Below are positions 21,608 through 31,813 of a DNA stretch of 47,078 nt, in pieces; position 1 is the first letter of the stretch, and each line of letters begins with the position of its first letter. Where the stretch lies: contig NZ_ML675593.1 in assembly GCF_007826885.1 (NCBI RefSeq), positions 21,865-68,942 on the forward strand, given 5' to 3'. This stretch comes from Candidatus Nitrosocosmicus arcticus (GTDB lineage: Archaea; Thermoproteota; Nitrososphaeria; Nitrososphaerales; Nitrososphaeraceae). Below the pieces are notes generated by a model that saw nothing but the letters and a program-made list of their open reading frames with translations, searched no databases and had not been told where the DNA came from. The position numbers and the translations under genes are program-made.

Positions 21608-24600
21608 TTATAAATAATCAAGTAATGTAGGTTGTTCTTTCTTTGATTGAAAAATAAAATTTCGCTCAACGATAAGTGATTCAACTCTGCTCCTTAAATA
21701 ACTTGTGACTTTAAAGCTGTTACTCAAGTTTTCTGCTAAAAGAACATATTTTTCTACCGAACCTCGAGTAACAGTCTGTAATAAAGTATTATTACAAGTA
21801 AGACATTTACCATACAAAGGAATTCGCCTATACTTATCACCGCATTTATTGCACCTAAACGACTGCGAACAATAAGAACGCATATTACCCATTATATCAG
21901 GAATAATATGTGTAGTTAGGACCATAGAGATCACTTCGTTTGTGTCTACAGAATTAATAAGATTTGCTGTGGATATTTGCATTTCTAATTTTTCGCTCAT
22001 TGTATTTAATGTAGAATAAGCACTTCGATTTATGTCGGATATTAAAGTGCCACTAGTATGGGTAAACCCATAATCATAAAATTGTTTATCACTCCCTATT
22101 CGATTTTTTAGTATTTCAATCGTATCAGAAACATCTGCTGCTTTAGCCCCTAACCAAGTATTTTTATAAAAGTCTAGTGGATATTTTTCCGCTATGTCAA
22201 CATTGTGAGCTTGTCGTTGAACCTCATGGGGTAATACAATAGGTTGTATTAGTAATGGAGCATCCATTAACCCACCTATTTTATCTGGTAAGAATGAATA
22301 GGAAAAGTTTAAGAATGCATCAAATAATAGGATAATCGAATCGGCATCACCATCACAATCTCTTCTTTTTGCGGAATGCCATATTGGAGAACCCAAACAA
22401 ACTTGTGATTCTGTAAAACCTATTATTCGCCCTATAATACCGACTGAAGTATGAGGAGCCAACCCTACTATTAAATGTCCAATCAGATCATTTTCGGTAT
22501 AGGCATTATAAATCGGTGGTAAATCATATAAAGTAACTAATTCCTCATCTATGAATTTAGTTGTTTTTAAGAGATATTTTGCAGAATCTAATGGAATTAT
22601 AACATCTTGAATCAGCAATTCTACGATTTGTCTGTCAGAATTAAGTTCATTCTGTCGATAATCAAATTTGTACCCTAATTCTCTTAATTTTGAAATGGAT
22701 GTATCGATAAAACATGGCATGAAATGAGTAAGAGGTTCATTCGTTGCGTCAAATCTTATGGTACCGTCCTTAAACACAGATAAACCACATTTTTTTCTAA
22801 GAATGCCCTTCTCAATTTGTTCCGCTTCTTTGTCTTTTCCCATTAAAGCTTTCACTCCCTTTAAAGGAGAAGTTACTCTATAGCTCAACCTTGTTTCGGC
22901 TTTTTCTATCAAGGTCTTCAAAGGAAATTTTATTGGAGAAAATGTTTTATATTCGTTACCACACTTTAAACATTTGTTCCTTTTTTTCATATTGTCAATA
23001 GGATCAAACGATAAATCTAGAGATTCAACTTTACAGACATTGCAAATAAATTTGATAGGAGTCGCTTGGTTGCAATAGTTGCAGTTAGTACCTAATGATG
23101 GAATATTACAATGATAACAATATCGATTTGATTTTTCTGAATAAAAGGAATCGGCGTTTGAGGCCTTTAGGAGGTCTCTCATGGGACCACCTTTGTTACC
23201 TACTGGAAACAAAACATGGATTGGGGGTTTCATCTTACGCTCTGAGGCTTTTTCAGGTCTACCAACTCTCACAGATATTGAAGAAGAAAATTTTGAACGG
23301 ATTTTAATGGATGAAATTGAATTTATTAGTTTGATGACATTTGCTTTACCTTCGCCTTTCTCCGACAGTAAACTTTCAACAATTTCATCCATATCTCTGA
23401 TAAATCCATCCTTTGATACATAATTAGAAAATGTTGAAAAATGGATTTTATTGCGAGTTTCATATAACACTGACAGTATGGATTGGAATTCTGGAATACA
23501 TAAACACACTAACGCGAAAATTTGAGACCCATCCAGCAATACTATAGTATTACTAGATGTATCTAGACGATGGAACACGCCTAGTTTTTCTAGAATACTT
23601 TTTAGTTTGTGGTCATATGATAGCCCAATTTCATCGGTAGTTGATTCAATCTCTTCATTTCTGCTAAATAGTGAAATAAAAGATATTAAGACATTTCTAA
23701 TCAATAAAAAATCTTTTATTGATATAGCTTCCCAGTAGAAGGAATATTTAGGATGTAGGGGAATGTCAAATTGGAATGATATTTTCAATGCCTCTCTAAA
23801 TAGTGGTATTGTAGAGGGATTAGAACTCAATTTAACTAACTTATCATATTCAACAACAAAGTCCTTTTTGACTTCATTGATGTGGCTCAATTTTTCAAAT
23901 AATTCCTGGGTCCATATTTCTTCAACATAACTTGCAGGTAATAATTGTGCATTATTCTCAAGGAAATCTCCATAACTAATCAGGATGTCTCCTAGGTATA
24001 ATATTTTGACTACTCGTGATCTTAAATTTAGGGCTTGTTCTACGGTATTGATCTGCAAAACCGTTCCGTCATCTAATTTTACTATTGGTGGTTCAATGGT
24101 GTCTACAAGGGCAATTGTTGAAGCTTTTCCAGGGACATCCATTTTAATTTGGGTTCCAACTACTACGGCAGAATTCAATAGTACAGGAATCGTGTTATGA
24201 ATTCCTATCGTAGCGAATCCAGTATTAAAACATCTTCCATATCGTAATCTAAATCCACCAATTTTCTTGTTCATAGATAACACGGGCCTTCCTGTAATTA
24301 CTTCAGACATCCTATGACTCACAGTATCATCATCGCCTGTTTGGATTGCACCATTCATATTTGCAAGCCAGTCCCAACCTTCTAACTCGAGTGTTTCGAC
24401 CAATTTTGTAAGTTTTCTACATCTACCTATCAAACCATCGTTCATAACCCTGAGTGCTCCTCCTCTAACTCTATCTGTTTTTATCCTCTTCATCTCCCGG
24501 TGAATTACTAATTCAACTGGGTCTGTATCTACCCCATCGATCTCAACAGGCAAATTAGAGATGCAAAAATCGACATCTTTATCTAAGACTTTAAATTGAA

Positions 24601-25225
24601 AGTTTCCTACTTCCCTCTCATACAATCTTAATTCTTCTATGAACCTGCCAGTTTCATCATCAAAAGAATTTGTTTGGTATTTGGCAACTCCAGACACTCT
24701 CCTTACATGATCAGCGATAAGCATAGTCAGTGCTGCTTCAGTCCCTCCAGCAGATCTTATTGGGCCAGCGAAAGAAATGGAGAGGTATTGTGAACCATCT
24801 TTATTATATTTCAATTGTACATCAGATATGCCCTGTAATGGAGCAACAGTGACTCCTTCCGTCACCACAGCCAAACTTACCCTAACCGCATTTTCTAATC
24901 TTGTCCTAAGATCTCCAGATCCATATTCCCCCTTTGCGATTTCTTCAGCTATTTTAAGAGCCGCTTTCTCTTTTGTAGTATAATTTAGTAATGTCCGTAA
25001 TCTGTCTGATATATCTATATTATGCATTTTTGCAACTCTGTCAGATAAGTCGTAGGCAATTTTTGGTTCGACATAAGTCGTAACATCCAAACCCTTTTTT
25101 CTTGCTTTTTCGGCTACCATATGAAGCTTATTTACCTGTTCCAGTAGACTAATTTGATACATTAAATAATAACTGGGAATTGAAATATTTTTTAATCTTA
25201 TTTTAGCTTCATCAATCAAATTCAT
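21608..25225 (-). CDS. polC: DNA polymerase D large subunit DP2
   Basis: A 1205-residue catalytic subunit of polymerase D, of normal length. The N-terminal region has the family block GPIRSAGGTEAALTMLIADH. The catalytic acidic motif RRDCDGDADSIILL has its Asp residues at 956-962. Cys-rich zinc modules are at CYHCNIPSLGTNCNYC, at CNVCK...KCLKC and near the C-terminus at CNKCGDKY...GKCLTC. The last residues (QPTLLDYL) fit a PCNA-interacting peptide Qxx(L)xx(Y)(L). No intein is seen around the active site. It probably forms an operon with the GGGP synthase gene, which ends 20 bases upstream. Confidence 0.97.
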   Translation of the reverse strand: MNLIDEAKIRLKNISIPSYYLMYQISLLEQVNKLHMVAEKARKKGLDVTTYVEPKIAYDLSDRVAKMHNIDISDRLRTLLNYTTKEKAALKIAEEIAKGEYGSGDLRTRLENAVRVSLAVVTEGVTVAPLQGISDVQLKYNKDGSQYLSISFAGPIRSAGGTEAALTMLIADHVRRVSGVAKYQTNSFDDETGRFIEELRLYEREVGNFQFKVLDKDVDFCISNLPVEIDGVDTDPVELVIHREMKRIKTDRVRGGALRVMNDGLIGRCRKLTKLVETLELEGWDWLANMNGAIQTGDDDTVSHRMSEVITGRPVLSMNKKIGGFRLRYGRCFNTGFATIGIHNTIPVLLNSAVVVGTQIKMDVPGKASTIALVDTIEPPIVKLDDGTVLQINTVEQALNLRSRVVKILYLGDILISYGDFLENNAQLLPASYVEEIWTQELFEKLSHINEVKKDFVVEYDKLVKLSSNPSTIPLFREALKISFQFDIPLHPKYSFYWEAISIKDFLLIRNVLISFISLFSRNEEIESTTDEIGLSYDHKLKSILEKLGVFHRLDTSSNTIVLLDGSQIFALVCLCIPEFQSILSVLYETRNKIHFSTFSNYVSKDGFIRDMDEIVESLLSEKGEGKANVIKLINSISSIKIRSKFSSSISVRVGRPEKASERKMKPPIHVLFPVGNKGGPMRDLLKASNADSFYSEKSNRYCYHCNIPSLGTNCNYCNQATPIKFICNVCKVESLDLSFDPIDNMKKRNKCLKCGNEYKTFSPIKFPLKTLIEKAETRLSYRVTSPLKGVKALMGKDKEAEQIEKGILRKKCGLSVFKDGTIRFDATNEPLTHFMPCFIDTSISKLRELGYKFDYRQNELNSDRQIVELLIQDVIIPLDSAKYLLKTTKFIDEELVTLYDLPPIYNAYTENDLIGHLIVGLAPHTSVGIIGRIIGFTESQVCLGSPIWHSAKRRDCDGDADSIILLFDAFLNFSYSFLPDKIGGLMDAPLLIQPIVLPHEVQRQAHNVDIAEKYPLDFYKNTWLGAKAADVSDTIEILKNRIGSDKQFYDYGFTHTSGTLISDINRSAYSTLNTMSEKLEMQISTANLINSVDTNEVISMVLTTHIIPDIMGNMRSYCSQSFRCNKCGDKYRRIPLYGKCLTCNNTLLQTVTRGSVEKYVLLAENLSNSFKVTSYLRSRVESLIVERNFIFQSKKEQPTLLDYL

Positions 25226-26524: not shown

Positions 26525-27253
26525 ATGAATATAGATATTATATCACTAATACTAAATTTTACCTTAATTCCATTTGTCTCAGCGTTGGCATTATCAATCC
26601 TGGCTTTAGAAATTTATAACCAGTTAAAAAACAAGAATTTTAAGAAATACAATATTGAAACAAAAATCTCTCAGCTTGAAAGTCAAATAAAGGATCAAAT
26701 CAATAAAACTAATCTCATTTCTGAACAATTTAGAGTTGTATATGATAGAACTAATAAGACCAATGAAAAATTAACCGATATACAAGGATTAATAAAATTA
26801 TTAGATAAAAATATAATTTCTAACAACAATAGTATCAAGTCACAAAATTCTGTAATATCACCATTCCAAAACTACGTAAGCAATCCAAATATTGAGTCAT
26901 CACTACCTAGTCACGACATAATATCACACGACACTATCAAGTCAGTCGACCAGGAAGAAGAACGTCAGAATAGTACAATAGAATACATTCTCAAAAAGTT
27001 AGAAGATAAATCTCTGACTACTAGAGAGGTTCAAAGAGTTATCGGTAGGACAAGAGAACATACTTCTAGATTAATGAAAAAATTATTTGAAGAGAAAGTG
27101 GTTGATAGAGATATGAGCACAAAGCCCTTCAGGTACACTATTACAGTCGAAGGTCGTAAACTGTTGTCAAAGCATTCTGCTTTAAAAAGTCACTCTCATT
27201 CTCACCCTGATCTTCCGAATAAGGTGAATCCAATAAATGAGTTGATTGAGTAG
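26525..27253 (+). CDS. Membrane-anchored winged-helix protein
   Basis: A 242-residue protein. One N-terminal transmembrane helix (about residues 8-30) is followed by a coiled coil (about 42-98) and a Ser- and Asn-rich linker. The C-terminal winged helix (about 148-214) reads LTTREVQRVIGRTREHTSRLM, then YTITVEGRKLL, resembling MarR/ArsR-type domains. A DNA-binding domain tied to the membrane would suit a sensor or a DNA-membrane tether. Its last 113 bases overlap the end of the convergent gene at 27141-27725. It sits about 500 bases from the putative origin. Confidence 0.72.
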   Translation: MNIDIISLILNFTLIPFVSALALSILALEIYNQLKNKNFKKYNIETKISQLESQIKDQINKTNLISEQFRVVYDRTNKTNEKLTDIQGLIKLLDKNIISNNNSIKSQNSVISPFQNYVSNPNIESSLPSHDIISHDTIKSVDQEEERQNSTIEYILKKLEDKSLTTREVQRVIGRTREHTSRLMKKLFEEKVVDRDMSTKPFRYTITVEGRKLLSKHSALKSHSHSHPDLPNKVNPINELIE

Positions 27254-27725
27254 TCGGTGTCCCAACTGACGAAATAACATCTCTTTGAATTCTAATTAAC
27301 TTATAAATCCACTCTTTTCCTCTTTTACTCCTTACCAATTTTTGCTTTTCAAAATATCTTGATAAATAAGTGGATATAAGACTAAGTTGTAACTGCTCAC
27401 CGTATGATTCTTCATAGGATTCGGCAACATTTGAAGATGTAAAAGAACTATAGGCAAAGTTGTTTTCAATTAATGACCATATCTTTGATCCAATCGAGTT
27501 ATTAGATGAATTGAGTCCTAAATCATACTTTTGTAAACTATTGTTTTGTTCCATAGGAAGTTTGATATTGTTATCTAAATCATTCTTTGAGACGTTTAGG
27601 GATTCCACTAATTGAAGAACTTTTTGAATTTTGTCTTTTGATAGATTACCCTCTAGAGATAAATTATATTTCCCACCTTCAGCATCCTCTAGTTCAATTT
27701 TTATTCTCTTTTTTCCAGTGGACAA
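27141..27725 (-). CDS. Origin-adjacent winged-helix protein
   Basis: A 194-residue protein transcribed away from the putative origin, divergent from orc1/cdc6. The N-terminus (KRIKIELEDAEGGKYNLSLE) is beta-rich. The C-terminal half (about 85-165) looks like a winged helix: AYSSFTSSNVAESYEESYG, then LSLISTYLSRYFEKQKLVRS and RGKEWIYKLIRI. I know no function for it. Its position across the origin from orc1 recalls winged-helix initiator-associated proteins such as WhiP in Sulfolobus, but similarity to WhiP is not claimed. Its 3' end overlaps the 3' end of the opposite gene by 113 bases. Confidence 0.7.
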   Translation of the reverse strand: MSTGKKRIKIELEDAEGGKYNLSLEGNLSKDKIQKVLQLVESLNVSKNDLDNNIKLPMEQNNSLQKYDLGLNSSNNSIGSKIWSLIENNFAYSSFTSSNVAESYEESYGEQLQLSLISTYLSRYFEKQKLVRSKRGKEWIYKLIRIQRDVISSVGTPTTQSTHLLDSPYSEDQGENESDFLKQNALTTVYDLRL

Positions 27726-27885
27726 TTTATCGTCTCTGTGAATTTGATAACATATGTTAACTTAACAATATGGAATAAAAATTGATAACTAAAAGATTAG
27801 TTTTTGTTAACTAAAATAAGCACATAATTATTGATGTTTAGATTCTTAAGTTAATTTGATTACTTCTCTTAAAGGTTATTCTAGT

Positions 27886-27923
27886 TCCAGTGGAAATAAA
27901 GGGGTTATTTCACGTTTATTATC
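27886..27923 (+). repeat. Origin recognition box 1 (ORB)
   Basis: The core TCCAGTGGAAATAAAGGGG matches the archaeal ORB consensus: a TCCAnTGGAAA dyad followed by the G-string. Orc1/Cdc6 binds such boxes. The 38-bp unit also contains a near-palindrome, GTGGAAATAA with TTATTTCAC. It is identical to the copy at 27947. Confidence 0.85.
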
Positions 27924-27946
27924 GTTGTGAATAGATTTAGAATTCC

Positions 27947-27984
27947 TCCAGTGGAAATAAAGGGGTTATTTCACGTTTATTATC
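27947..27984 (+). repeat. Origin recognition box 2 (ORB)
   Basis: Exact second copy of the 38-bp ORB unit, in the same orientation, 61 bases after the first. The 23-base spacer between them is unrelated. Confidence 0.85.
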
Positions 27985-28034
27985 AAATTATTCTTAACTG
28001 TTAAGATTAATGTTAATTTGTTTTGATAGCCCCA

Positions 28035-28050
28035 GGCCCCTTGATTTCTT
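28035..28050 (-). repeat. Inverted ORB-like element
   Basis: On the minus strand this reads AAGAAATCAAGGGGCC, which keeps the GAAA-n-AAGGGG part of the ORB (about 11 of 15 bases against GGAAATAAAGGGGTT). It faces the two direct ORBs from the other orientation and borders the AT-rich core, as in many archaeal origins. Confidence 0.45.
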
Positions 28051-28190
28051 ATGCAATTAGTAGTGATTTTGATAGTAGATTTATATTAATTTATTTTATT
28101 AATGTGTATAAAGTAATTGATTAACCTGTTTAAAATTAAATGTTAATAACAGTTAGCATATTAACATGATATTATCTTTTTATCATTCGA
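28051..28190. other. AT-rich core, candidate DNA unwinding element
   Basis: Almost pure A/T, with short runs such as ttatattaatttattttatt, between the inverted ORB-like element and the orc1 promoter. This is the expected place for initial duplex opening. It probably also includes the orc1/cdc6 promoter. Confidence 0.5.
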
Positions 28191-28246
28191 ATAGAAAAAT
28201 AGGGGTGTCTGTGTTGATTTATCGATGCAATTAACGGAAAGAAAGG

Positions 28247-29461
28247 ATGATGGATTCGGATTATTTAGATAATATATTTGATAAGGCTGTTATTGGAGCC
28301 AGTTTAATTAAAAACAGAAAAACATTAACAATCGATTACGTTCCTGAAAAATTACCATTTAGAGACGAAGAGTCCAAAACAATCGCACAAGTACTATCAG
28401 TAGTATTAAAAAATGGCAGACCTTCTAATCTCTTAGTTTTTGGAAAACCTGGAACAGGGAAAACGGCCGTTGTAAAAAATGTAATTACTAGACTAAAAAA
28501 AAAATCAATAGAGCATGGAATAGAGATTACCGTTACTATCATTAACGCAAAGACTTCAAATACTTCATACAAGGTATTGTATGATATTGCAGAGGATATA
28601 GGGATTAATCGCTTCGACAAGAAATTAAGAGTCCATTTTACTGGTTTATCTATGGGCGAAGCCACTGATAGGATTCTTGAATATATGAAAAAGAATAATC
28701 TTCGTGTAGTATTAATTATAGATGAGATAGATTCTTTGGTTGATAGGAATGGGGATGATGTTTTATATAGCTTTACTAGAGCAAATGAACGTATGTTGGG
28801 AGACGGGTTTGTATCCTTGATAGGAATATCCAATAGTCTTACATTTAAAGATAAACTAGACCCAAGAGTTAGAAGCAGTTTAAGTGAGGAAGAAATAATA
28901 TTTAATCCATACACAATAATTCAATTAAAAGAAATTCTAAATGACCGATCAAAACTTGCATTTAATGAGGGATCTATTGGTCAGGCTGCGATTAATTTAT
29001 GTGCAGCAGTGGCAGGGAAGGAAAATGGGGATGCGAGAAAGGCAATTGATCTATTAAGAGTAGCGGCTGAAATAGCAGAAAGAGAAAGGGCAGATATGGT
29101 TACTGAAAATCATATACGAGAAGCACAAGAAAAGATTGAAAAAGACACTAATTATGAGGTCATTAAAAATTCCACAACACATACAAAATTGATTGTTCTG
29201 TCTATCATGAAATCTCAAACTGGTATGACTGGAGATGTTTATGATATTTATGTTTCATTGTGCAAACAGATAGAACATGATTCTCTGACCCAAAGAAGAG
29301 TCACTCAAATAATTAGTGAATTAGATCAACTAGGATTAATCACTTCAAACGTCGTTAGCCATGGTAGGTATGGCCGTTCTCAAATAATAAAAATAGCTGT
29401 TTCTTCTGATACTATATCCAAAGCTCTAAAGGATGATAATTTTCTATCCATGTTGTTGTGA
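28247..29461 (+). CDS. orc1/cdc6: Orc1/Cdc6 replication initiator
   Basis: A 404-residue AAA+ ATPase that binds ORB elements and loads MCM. Walker A is GKPGTGKT at residues 66-73, Walker B is LIIDEIDSL with Asp159-Asp162, and sensor 1 is SLIGISNSL. The lid/sensor 2 region includes GDARKAIDLLRVAAEIAERE. The C-terminal winged helix (about 310-400) reads TQRRVTQIISELDQLGLI. Two ATG codons adjoin (28247 and 28250). It is the only initiator gene in the window and lies directly beside two perfect ORBs. Confidence 0.97.
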   Translation: MMDSDYLDNIFDKAVIGASLIKNRKTLTIDYVPEKLPFRDEESKTIAQVLSVVLKNGRPSNLLVFGKPGTGKTAVVKNVITRLKKKSIEHGIEITVTIINAKTSNTSYKVLYDIAEDIGINRFDKKLRVHFTGLSMGEATDRILEYMKKNNLRVVLIIDEIDSLVDRNGDDVLYSFTRANERMLGDGFVSLIGISNSLTFKDKLDPRVRSSLSEEEIIFNPYTIIQLKEILNDRSKLAFNEGSIGQAAINLCAAVAGKENGDARKAIDLLRVAAEIAERERADMVTENHIREAQEKIEKDTNYEVIKNSTTHTKLIVLSIMKSQTGMTGDVYDIYVSLCKQIEHDSLTQRRVTQIISELDQLGLITSNVVSHGRYGRSQIIKIAVSSDTISKALKDDNFLSMLL

Positions 29462-29477
29462 TATATTTTTACAAATT

Positions 29478-29816
29478 TCATGTGATCGAATGTTCTGATC
29501 GAAAGACATGATCGAATGGACAGCTTTTGATAAATACTTGATCAACAATGTTCTATTTGATAATAATGAAATATAGAAGTAGAACAGAAATAACTGTCTT
29601 AATACTAGAAGCAGGAAACGGTGGGGCTACAAAGACAAAAATCATGTACAAATCATTCCTTTCATACGCACAGTTAAAAGAATACTTTACAATGTTAATT
29701 GAGAATGCTTTGTTAGAATACGAAGATGGAACTCAAAAGTATAGAACAACAGAAAAAGGCTTACGGCTATTAAAGATATATAATCAGATAGAAGAATTAA
29801 TCCCAAGCACAATAAA
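29478..29816 (+). repeat. 339-bp direct repeat, copy 1 (regulator cassette)
   Basis: Identical base for base to 30466-30804 (offset 988). The unit holds three 13-bp iterons, a TATA box and a nearly complete winged-helix gene. Complete identity, including non-coding bases, points to a recent duplication or ongoing gene conversion. A third, inverted copy spans about 31470-31813. Confidence 0.92.
29483..29521 (+). promoter_or_regulatory. Three 13-bp iterons before winged-helix copy B
   Basis: Tandem units TGATCGAATGTTC, TGATCGAAAGACA and TGATCGAATGGAC (29483, 29496, 29509) share TGATCGAA. They end just upstream of the TATA-like ataaatac (about 29530-29537). The spacing of 13 bp is slightly over one helical turn. 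This looks like an operator array, possibly for the encoded winged-helix protein itself. The same array precedes copies C and D. Confidence 0.55.
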
Positions 29817-29820
29817 ATAA
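29566..29820 (+). CDS. Small winged-helix protein (HTH_45-like), copy B
   Basis: An 84-residue winged-helix protein (MKYRSRTEITVLILEAGNGG, then TKTKIMYKSFLSYAQLKEYF and YRTTEKGLRLL). The start at 29566 is preferred to an upstream ATG at 29548: paralogue A begins at the same MKYRS, and the TATA box at about 29530 predicts transcription starting near 29557. The message would therefore be almost leaderless. It is identical to copy C except for the last few codons. It lies directly after orc1/cdc6 on the same strand but has its own promoter. Confidence 0.75.
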   Translation: MKYRSRTEITVLILEAGNGGATKTKIMYKSFLSYAQLKEYFTMLIENALLEYEDGTQKYRTTEKGLRLLKIYNQIEELIPSTIK

Positions 29821-30170: not shown

Positions 30171-30465
30171 GAGATCATTGTCTGAATGTAATTTAAATAA
30201 TTATCTGAATCCTAGAATCCAAACTCTATGCTTGTTCTCGAAAAGACAAGTTCGCTAAATATATTATATTGATTTCAACATAATTGAATAGTTGTTTATA
30301 TCCAGGCAAAATATGCTAAAACTTGATCAAATTAAATTCGTAACTAAATAGCGAAATTGTCTAATCAATATTATTCATATTAATTCATTGAGGTTTACTA
30401 ATGCATGCTCAAAGGACTCAAAATTAGTAAATATCAGATTTTTATGAAATAGATTGTTATGTTAG
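30171..30465. other. Intergenic before second cassette
   Basis: AT-rich, with no gene or repeat that I can support. It contains the promoter of the minus-strand membrane protein and ends at the sharp border of the 339-bp repeat. Confidence 0.4.
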
Positions 30466-30804
30466 TCATGTGATCGAATGTTCTGATCGAAAGACATGAT
30501 CGAATGGACAGCTTTTGATAAATACTTGATCAACAATGTTCTATTTGATAATAATGAAATATAGAAGTAGAACAGAAATAACTGTCTTAATACTAGAAGC
30601 AGGAAACGGTGGGGCTACAAAGACAAAAATCATGTACAAATCATTCCTTTCATACGCACAGTTAAAAGAATACTTTACAATGTTAATTGAGAATGCTTTG
30701 TTAGAATACGAAGATGGAACTCAAAAGTATAGAACAACAGAAAAAGGCTTACGGCTATTAAAGATATATAATCAGATAGAAGAATTAATCCCAAGCACAA
30801 TAAA
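30466..30804 (+). repeat. 339-bp direct repeat, copy 2 (regulator cassette)
   Basis: Identical to 29478-29816, including the three TGATCGAA iterons (30471-30509), the TATA box and nearly the whole winged-helix gene. Confidence 0.92.
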
Positions 30805-30829
30805 TACCTCTAATAAAGACACATTTTAG
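30554..30829 (+). CDS. Small winged-helix protein (HTH_45-like), copy C
   Basis: A 91-residue winged-helix protein, identical to copy B over its first ~83 residues. The 339-bp repeat ends one base into the codon that becomes the stop in copy B, so copy C reads on with NTSNKDTF. This differing tail shows that the border of the duplication falls at the gene's 3' end. Same iterons and TATA box as copy B. The start at the MKYRS codon is preferred to the ATG six codons upstream. Confidence 0.72.
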   Translation: MKYRSRTEITVLILEAGNGGATKTKIMYKSFLSYAQLKEYFTMLIENALLEYEDGTQKYRTTEKGLRLLKIYNQIEELIPSTINTSNKDTF

Positions 30830-31469: not shown

Positions 31470-31730
31470 CTAATTTGCATGAACTTGAGGTATTATTTCT
31501 TCTATCTGATTATATATCTTTAATAGCCGTAAGCCTTTTTCTGTTGTTCTATAGATATTTAACAATCCATCTTCGTATTCTAACGAACCGTTCTCAATTA
31601 ACATTGTAAAGTATTCTTTTAACTGTGCGTATGAAAGGAATGATTTGTACATGATTTTTGTCTTTGTAGCCCCACCGTTGGCTGCATCCAGGATCATGGC
31701 CACTATTTCTGTTCTACTTCTATATTTCAT
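31470..31730 (-). CDS. Small winged-helix protein (HTH_45-like), copy D
   Basis: An 86-residue winged-helix protein on the minus strand. Its N-terminus (MKYRSRTEIVAMILDAANGG) equals copy A, while the middle (TKTKIMYKSFLSYAQLKEYF) equals copies B and C, making it a chimera. The segment DGLLNIYRTTEKG has three more bases than in B and C. It has the same upstream iterons and TATA box, so all three clustered copies should respond to the same regulator. Confidence 0.72.
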   Translation of the reverse strand: MKYRSRTEIVAMILDAANGGATKTKIMYKSFLSYAQLKEYFTMLIENGSLEYEDGLLNIYRTTEKGLRLLKIYNQIEEIIPQVHAN

Positions 31731-31813
31731 TATTATCAAATAGAACATTGTTGATCAAGTATTTATCAAAAGCTGTCCATTCGATCATGTCTTTCGATCA
31801 GAACATTCGATCA
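31470..31813 (-). repeat. Inverted, mosaic third copy of the regulator cassette
   Basis: On the minus strand this repeats the iterons (31775-31813), TATA box and winged-helix gene of copies B and C almost exactly. However, a ~36-base patch near the 5' end of the gene (about 31675-31715) matches copy A at 14.9 kb instead, and the region before the tail also differs. Together with the two direct copies it forms long inverted repeats around the UspA gene. Confidence 0.85.

Follow-up and report, generated by a model that had tools for sequence, protein, structure and literature searches.

The intergenic region at positions 27726-28246 of the 47,078-nucleotide stretch analyzed here from the draft genome of Candidatus Nitrosocosmicus arcticus, a soil ammonia-oxidizing archaeon (contig NZ_ML675593.1, positions 21,865 to 68,942; the whole stretch is referred to as the window) is, as judged from its sequence, very probably a chromosomal replication origin of the archaeal oriC1 kind that also carries an array of TTAAC boxes, proposed as binding sites for a second factor. 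The region directly adjoins orc1/cdc6 (28247-29461, plus strand), identified by Pfam matches to Cdc6_lid (2e-25) and Cdc6_C (5e-22) and by the NCBIfam match TIGR02928 (4e-111). This is the only Orc1/Cdc6 gene that Pfam profile and protein searches detect in the 2.64-Mb genome. Four origin recognition boxes (ORBs) precede it in the order ORB1> ORB2> <ORB3, AT-rich segment, ORB4> orc1/cdc6, a layout kept in every congener with a readable locus. The original prediction, made from the letters of the window alone, had proposed a complete archaeal origin here, with two identical ORBs, an opposing ORB-like element and an AT-rich core before the initiator gene. That layout is borne out by the ORB motif match, the uniqueness of the site, the single initiator gene and the conservation among congeners; the prediction did not include ORB4, the array of TTAAC boxes or what the divergent neighbor gene encodes.

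ORB1 (27886-27923) and ORB2 (27947-27984), both on the plus strand, are exact copies of the 38-nt direct repeat TCCAGTGGAAATAAAGGGGTTATTTCACGTTTATTATC, lying 61 bp apart from start to start. Each is made up of a 20-bp core (27886-27905 in ORB1) and an 18-bp extension, and both copies fit the common archaeal ORB motif TCCA[CG]T[TG]GAAA[TC][GA]AAGGGGT, as given for Ori-Finder 2 and DoriC in an excerpt of PMC4164010, at 20/20 core positions; no Nitrososphaeria motif is among those listed in that excerpt. A 19-nt version of the core occurs exactly twice in the window, where dinucleotide shuffles yield 0.02 matches at three or fewer mismatches. In a search of the whole draft genome, one of the checks suggested with the original prediction, the exact core was again found only at ORB1 and ORB2, and the next best two places have three mismatches.

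The ORB had been described as longer than usual and possibly lineage-specific, with an extra near-palindrome as the distinguishing part. The length is indeed lineage-specific, because the 18-bp extension common to both copies is confined to the source genus, where its conserved parts are GTT-R-ATTCAC and a terminal TTATTAWC. Its attribution to the near-palindrome did not stand: GTGGAAATAA/TTATTTCAC exists in the letters here, but the 12 other readable congeners have TTAATTCAC, TTGATTCAC or TTAAATCAC at the same site, and we rejected it as a functional part of the ORB for want of conservation. In the alignment, the terminal TTATTAWC corresponds to an ATTAAC box that follows ORB1 in other genera. 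The 38-bp unit may therefore be explained by both copies carrying TTATTAWC here, whereas most other genera have ATTAAC after ORB1 only. A half-dyad, TCCAGTGGA, at 27714-27722 was not counted as a further ORB because it overlaps the codons for Ser-Thr-Gly at the start of the divergent gene, where coding constraint may account for its conservation.

A doublet of direct ORBs at a pitch of about 61 bp is a class-wide trait of Nitrososphaeria. The pitch is 61 bp in every congener in which the pair was read, and the doublet is also present in three complete single-contig congeners. Across the class it occurs in 59/69 loci at a pitch of 59-64 bp (61 in 31 loci, 62 in 16). Because some of these 69 loci were found through ORB patterns, we also used a second, independent set of loci from named genomes, collected through the Orc1/Cdc6 alignment alone. 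In this set the doublet is found in 49 of 53 Nitrososphaeria loci at a pitch of 60-65 bp, including loci labelled Nitrosopumilus, Nitrosarchaeum, Nitrosotenuis, Nitrosopelagicus and Nitrosocaldus, and in none of 15 outgroup loci (Bathyarchaeota, Hermodarchaeota, Hadesarchaea and other outgroups). As the same pitch is held throughout the class, the pair is old, and its two members evolve in concert. Within the genus, a mean of 0.38 of 38 positions separates ORB1 from ORB2 of the same genome, as against 4.19 positions for ORB1 and 3.73 for ORB2 from one congener to another; this same-genome likeness was reached in none of 20,000 permutations, and the linker between the two ORBs has freely diverged among congeners. 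When each genus is represented by a single genome, the cores stand at a distance of 1.16 within a genome and of 2.35 to 2.76 between genomes. Unusual core variants are common to both ORBs of a genome, as with ATAATGGGG in G020, ATGTAGGGG in G043, ATCAAGGGG in G052 and ATATAGGGG in G075. Both gene conversion between the closely spaced copies and selection that keeps their affinities equal would account for this homogenization, which is also a clear natural case of protein-binding sites evolving in concert.

Some lineages depart from the common form of the doublet. Both ORBs of Nitrosopumilaceae have the head T[GA]GA[GA]TGGAAA in place of TCCAGTGGAAA (in short form, T[GA]GA[GA]TGG replaces TCCAGTGG), and the TCCA/TGGA dyad is gone. 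In loci L137-L146 of this family, both heads have changed from the dyad TCCA-N-TGGA to the direct repeat TGGA-N-TGGA, so that the standard ORB pattern misses these origins. Three marine group I loci (L338, L340, L342) have a doublet spacing of 38 bp rather than about 61 bp. Locus L136 (G116) has three tandem TCCAGTGGAAGTGATGGTGTCATT units upstream of orc1/cdc6 at spacings of 41 and 62 bp, with the winged-helix gene non-adjacent, and L298, labelled Nitrosocaldus, likewise has three forward ORBs.

The remaining two ORBs are weaker matches. ORB3 (28036-28055, minus strand; TGCATAAGAAATCAAGGGGC) is inverted and faces ORB2, and it confirms the opposing ORB-like element of the original prediction; ORB4 (28187-28206, plus strand) lies 60 bp before the orc1/cdc6 start codon. 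Alone, ORB3 and ORB4 would be unconvincing, and it is their recurrence across the class that supports both. An inverted ORB is found 64-112 bp after ORB2 in 55/60 class origins with the doublet (shuffled-sequence rate 0.0008), and 57/60 have a forward ORB in the interval from ORB2 to the start codon (shuffled-sequence rate 0.0017), nearly always 20-75 bp before that codon. Alignment with related Nitrososphaeria, also proposed with the original prediction, extends this layout well beyond the genus: one origin plan is held class-wide, in which a doublet at 61-62 bp is followed by an inverted ORB and then by an ORB ahead of the initiator start codon, and most families also have a TTAAC array.

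Two AT-rich segments are candidates for the place of unwinding. The first, at 27985-28035, is enclosed by the facing ORB2 and ORB3, and is proposed from the congener alignment and by analogy with the unwinding region between ORB2 and ORB3 of Sulfolobus; its stability is just moderately low. The second, at 28063-28186 between ORB3 and ORB4, is a candidate alternative unwinding segment and is probably also the orc1/cdc6 promoter region. The least stable 100 bp in 27600-28300 begins within it, at 28082, and falls in the lowest 0.6% of the window. An AT-rich core before the initiator gene was therefore correctly predicted, although it is not the weakest place in the window.

The genome of the window is a draft; strand asymmetry was measured about the orthologous ORB site in three complete congeners (G006, G007 and G008), using 40 stretches of 20 kb from each and assuming the terminus to be opposite. 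The arm difference in open reading frame (ORF) strand bias is positive in all three relatives and significant in two: +0.26 (p 0.012), +0.14 (p 0.12) and +0.39 (p 0.0004). That in GC skew is significant in one: +0.033 (p 0.001), +0.013 (p 0.12) and +0.011 (p 0.11). By these two measures the best-fitting origin lies 22 to 125 kb from the ORB site. The skew switch anticipated by the original prediction is thus only partly seen in these relatives: gene orientation switches near the site, and GC skew does so weakly. Strand asymmetry is supportive of an origin here, short of proof.

The second class of sites in the region is an array of 13 TTAAC/GTTAA boxes spanning 27756-28235, where 2.6 would be expected. 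The boxes start at 27756, 27757, 27762, 27806, 27807, 27850, 27994, 28000, 28012, 28121, 28142, 28161 and 28231. The origin holds the densest 450 bp of the window, with 12 boxes against at most 5 elsewhere, and in about 2.4 Mb sampled from the three complete congeners no 450-bp window has more than 8, compared with 13 to 16 at the origin; GC-matched windows of that sample have a maximum of 7, and none reaches the origin value. Over 59 origins there are 768 boxes against 148 expected, an enrichment of about fivefold. We also counted five-letter words in origin regions family by family and compared the counts with shuffles. GTTAA/TTAAC ranks first or second in families f1, f10, f11, f16 and f18, while GTGAA/TTCAC comes first in f3 and f4 and also ranks high in f9. 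Much of the array is made up of GTTAAC palindromes in the context TGTTAACA, of which 125 were counted over 33 origins; single TTAAC half-sites account for about half of the boxes. The main peak in the distances between boxes on the same strand is at 11, and there are others near 16, 22, 30 and 46. Within the ORB-flanked region, this second motif includes a conserved palindrome, TTAACTGTTAA, at 27994-28004 between ORB2 and ORB3, as seen in the congener alignment.

Divergent from orc1/cdc6 is a gene at 27141-27725 on the minus strand, with a TTG start at 27725, that encodes a 194-aa protein and is linked to the origin across the class. This ORF has no Pfam match; NCBIfam gives a weak winged-helix match far under the cut-off, and sequence comparison with solved structures returns weak, generic matches only. 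An AlphaFold2 model of the protein has a confident winged-helix domain at approximately residues 78-143, with a predicted local distance difference test score of about 97. The nearest solved folds to the model are the generic winged-helix regulators RosR, MecI and BlaI, none below E 0.001. Members of this family (alignment A1), a candidate new Pfam family, are found in 213/232 class genomes, nearly always in single copy, and in many other genomes of the phylum. The gene adjoins orc1/cdc6 in most class loci examined, including those of f3-f5, f8, f9, f11, f15, f16 and f18. The same divergent placement is seen on contigs named as Bathyarchaeota (L324, L339) and Hermodarchaeota (L337, L341; E 2e-15 and 4e-16), a linkage that may reflect binning errors. 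The wing motif of the protein tracks the type of box, with G[KR][EQ]W accompanying TTAAC in f1, f11 and f16, and GNSW or G[AT]GY accompanying TTCAC in f3 and f4; f18 is an exception (SSGW/SAGW with TTAAC), and the comparison is confounded by relatedness. The protein may bind the TTAAC boxes. A role of the boxes in autoregulation of the divergent gene was considered and is not supported, as the copies that have moved away from the origin in four genera (g4, g5, g11, g12) carry 0-4 boxes and no ORB in their upstream 500 bp. In these genera the array has stayed at the origin and has not followed the gene to its new place, and therefore it belongs to the origin.

From the sequence, uniqueness, conservation and linkage of these elements we infer how binding, loading and regulation could proceed at this locus. 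Orc1/Cdc6 monomers would occupy the tandem sites ORB1 and ORB2, which are spaced by about six helical turns, as well as the inverted ORB3, and MCM helicases would be recruited and loaded at the AT-rich segment between the facing ORB2 and ORB3. Through ORB4, before the start codon of orc1/cdc6, the initiator probably restrains its own production. The TTAAC array would supply a second class of binding sites for another conserved origin factor, in a role comparable to that of ucm and UBP in Sulfolobus, for which the divergently encoded winged-helix protein is the first candidate.

These sites could also be viewed as merely operators through which Orc1/Cdc6 or another regulator controls orc1/cdc6 and the divergent gene, with replication starting elsewhere or without a fixed origin, as occurs in some archaea according to the abstract of PMC11005403. 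Their position between two divergent genes, with ORB4 at the start of orc1/cdc6, would suit such a function. However, in the four genera in which the divergent gene has moved, the doublet and ORB3 remain before orc1/cdc6 along with the array, and nothing like any of them accompanies the moved gene. The genome is also without any other strong ORB site, and strand bias switches near this one in complete relatives, so that we regard control of transcription alone as improbable. The two ORBs are letter-identical over 38 bp in this genome, as a recent tandem duplication or an assembly artefact would also produce. The relatives contradict such an origin of the pair, given its occurrence at the same pitch throughout the class and in three complete single-contig congeners, and the excess of between-genome over within-genome divergence points instead to concerted evolution; we give this explanation almost no weight. 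Turning to the array, its boxes might be a methylation mark, with a GTTAAC methyltransferase taking part in a role like that of Dam and SeqA, which act at the GATC sites of E. coli oriC, or they might be a DNA-unwinding feature. Many boxes are palindromic and all are AT-rich, which would fit either possibility, but f3, f4 and f9 carry the non-palindromic TTCAC (GTGAA) instead and about half of the boxes are half-sites, making both rather unlikely.

Several results weigh against the interpretation of the region as an oriC1-type origin with a second factor. GC skew is weak in the three complete relatives (p 0.001, 0.11 and 0.12), and strand-balanced third-position skew gives no consistent switch in them, and therefore the asymmetry signal is mainly one of gene orientation. 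About 10 other places in the window are as unstable as the AT-rich segment at 28082 or more so. As for the second factor, the array is kept at the origin in genera where the winged-helix gene has moved away, and in f5 and f8 this gene lies beside orc1/cdc6 without TTAAC or TTCAC boxes. We advance only tentatively the further proposal of a new, second origin-recognition system, in which the conserved winged-helix protein, encoded beside the origin and inherited since before the split of Nitrososphaeria and Bathyarchaeota, and perhaps of Asgard archaea, would bind the TTAAC/TTCAC array between and around the ORBs and act with Orc1/Cdc6 in firing or control.

By the features tested, the locus belongs with the orc1/cdc6-adjacent archaeal origins of the oriC1 kind. 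The closest well-characterized case is oriC1 of Sulfolobus, in which the unwinding region lies between ORB2 and ORB3 in inverted orientation and origin activity requires a further motif, ucm, to which UBP binds (PMC12141716). Like the Sulfolobus/Saccharolobus origin, the region described here has an Orc1-family gene beside it, ORBs, an inverted ORB pair around an AT-rich segment, and a non-ORB motif between them. Unlike that origin, it places two tandem ORBs, at a fixed pitch of about 61 bp, ahead of the inverted pair and a further ORB at the initiator start codon, and its second motif is a TTAAC array where Sulfolobus has a single 11-bp ucm; the likeness drawn between array and ucm is one of role. 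UBP is described as confined to Desulfurococcales and Sulfolobales, where the ubp gene would have been acquired recently, and the same authors ask about analogous proteins in other lineages (PMC12141716). In contrast to UBP, the candidate factor here is a winged-helix protein encoded at the origin, and the locus would offer a concrete motif and candidate gene for that question in ammonia-oxidizing archaea and possibly in Asgard relatives. WhiP, described in PMC4010727 as a winged-helix initiator beside Sulfolobus oriC3, is similar in being a winged-helix protein encoded next to an origin; the gene identified here differs in adjoining an Orc1/Cdc6-type origin and in being divergent from orc1/cdc6.

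Within the same class, a single chromosomal origin has been mapped in Nitrosopumilus maritimus (Pelve et al. 2013, as cited in PMC4010727), and the doublet, ORB3, the TTAAC array and the winged-helix neighbor all recur in the Nitrosopumilus loci read here. Nitrosopumilaceae differ in their altered ORB head and in lacking the 38-bp identical extension. Archaeal ORBs are described as varying between genera in number, orientation and spacing (PMC5333045), whereas here one layout is held across a whole class. No description of the TTAAC array or the winged-helix neighbor was found in the literature, a search that did not cover most subscription papers, including that on the N. maritimus origin, and the newness of both is accordingly provisional.

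Other genes near the origin and further orc1/cdc6 genes also deserve comment. The gene for the large subunit of DNA polymerase D (21608-25225, minus strand) lies about 2.5 kb to the left of the region. After orc1/cdc6 there are three near-identical copies (94-97% at the DNA level) of a small HTH_45 winged-helix gene, at 29450-29820, 30438-30829 and 31470-31813, two direct and one inverted within 2.4 kb, which look like recent local duplications. A single Orc1/Cdc6 is found in the genus (G000, G006, G007, G008), and most other genera of the family have a second one that is about 30% identical. On contig C53 of G018 (L048), a second orc1/cdc6 is accompanied by the ORB type of another genus, while the own origin of that draft genome is on C60; this copy looks like bin contamination. 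Finally, on contig C257 of G016 (L033, L047) the orc1/cdc6 beside a normal ORB doublet is interrupted by many stops, and a further orc1/cdc6 fragment of 95% identity lies 2 kb downstream, for which an assembly error or a duplicated gene is possible.
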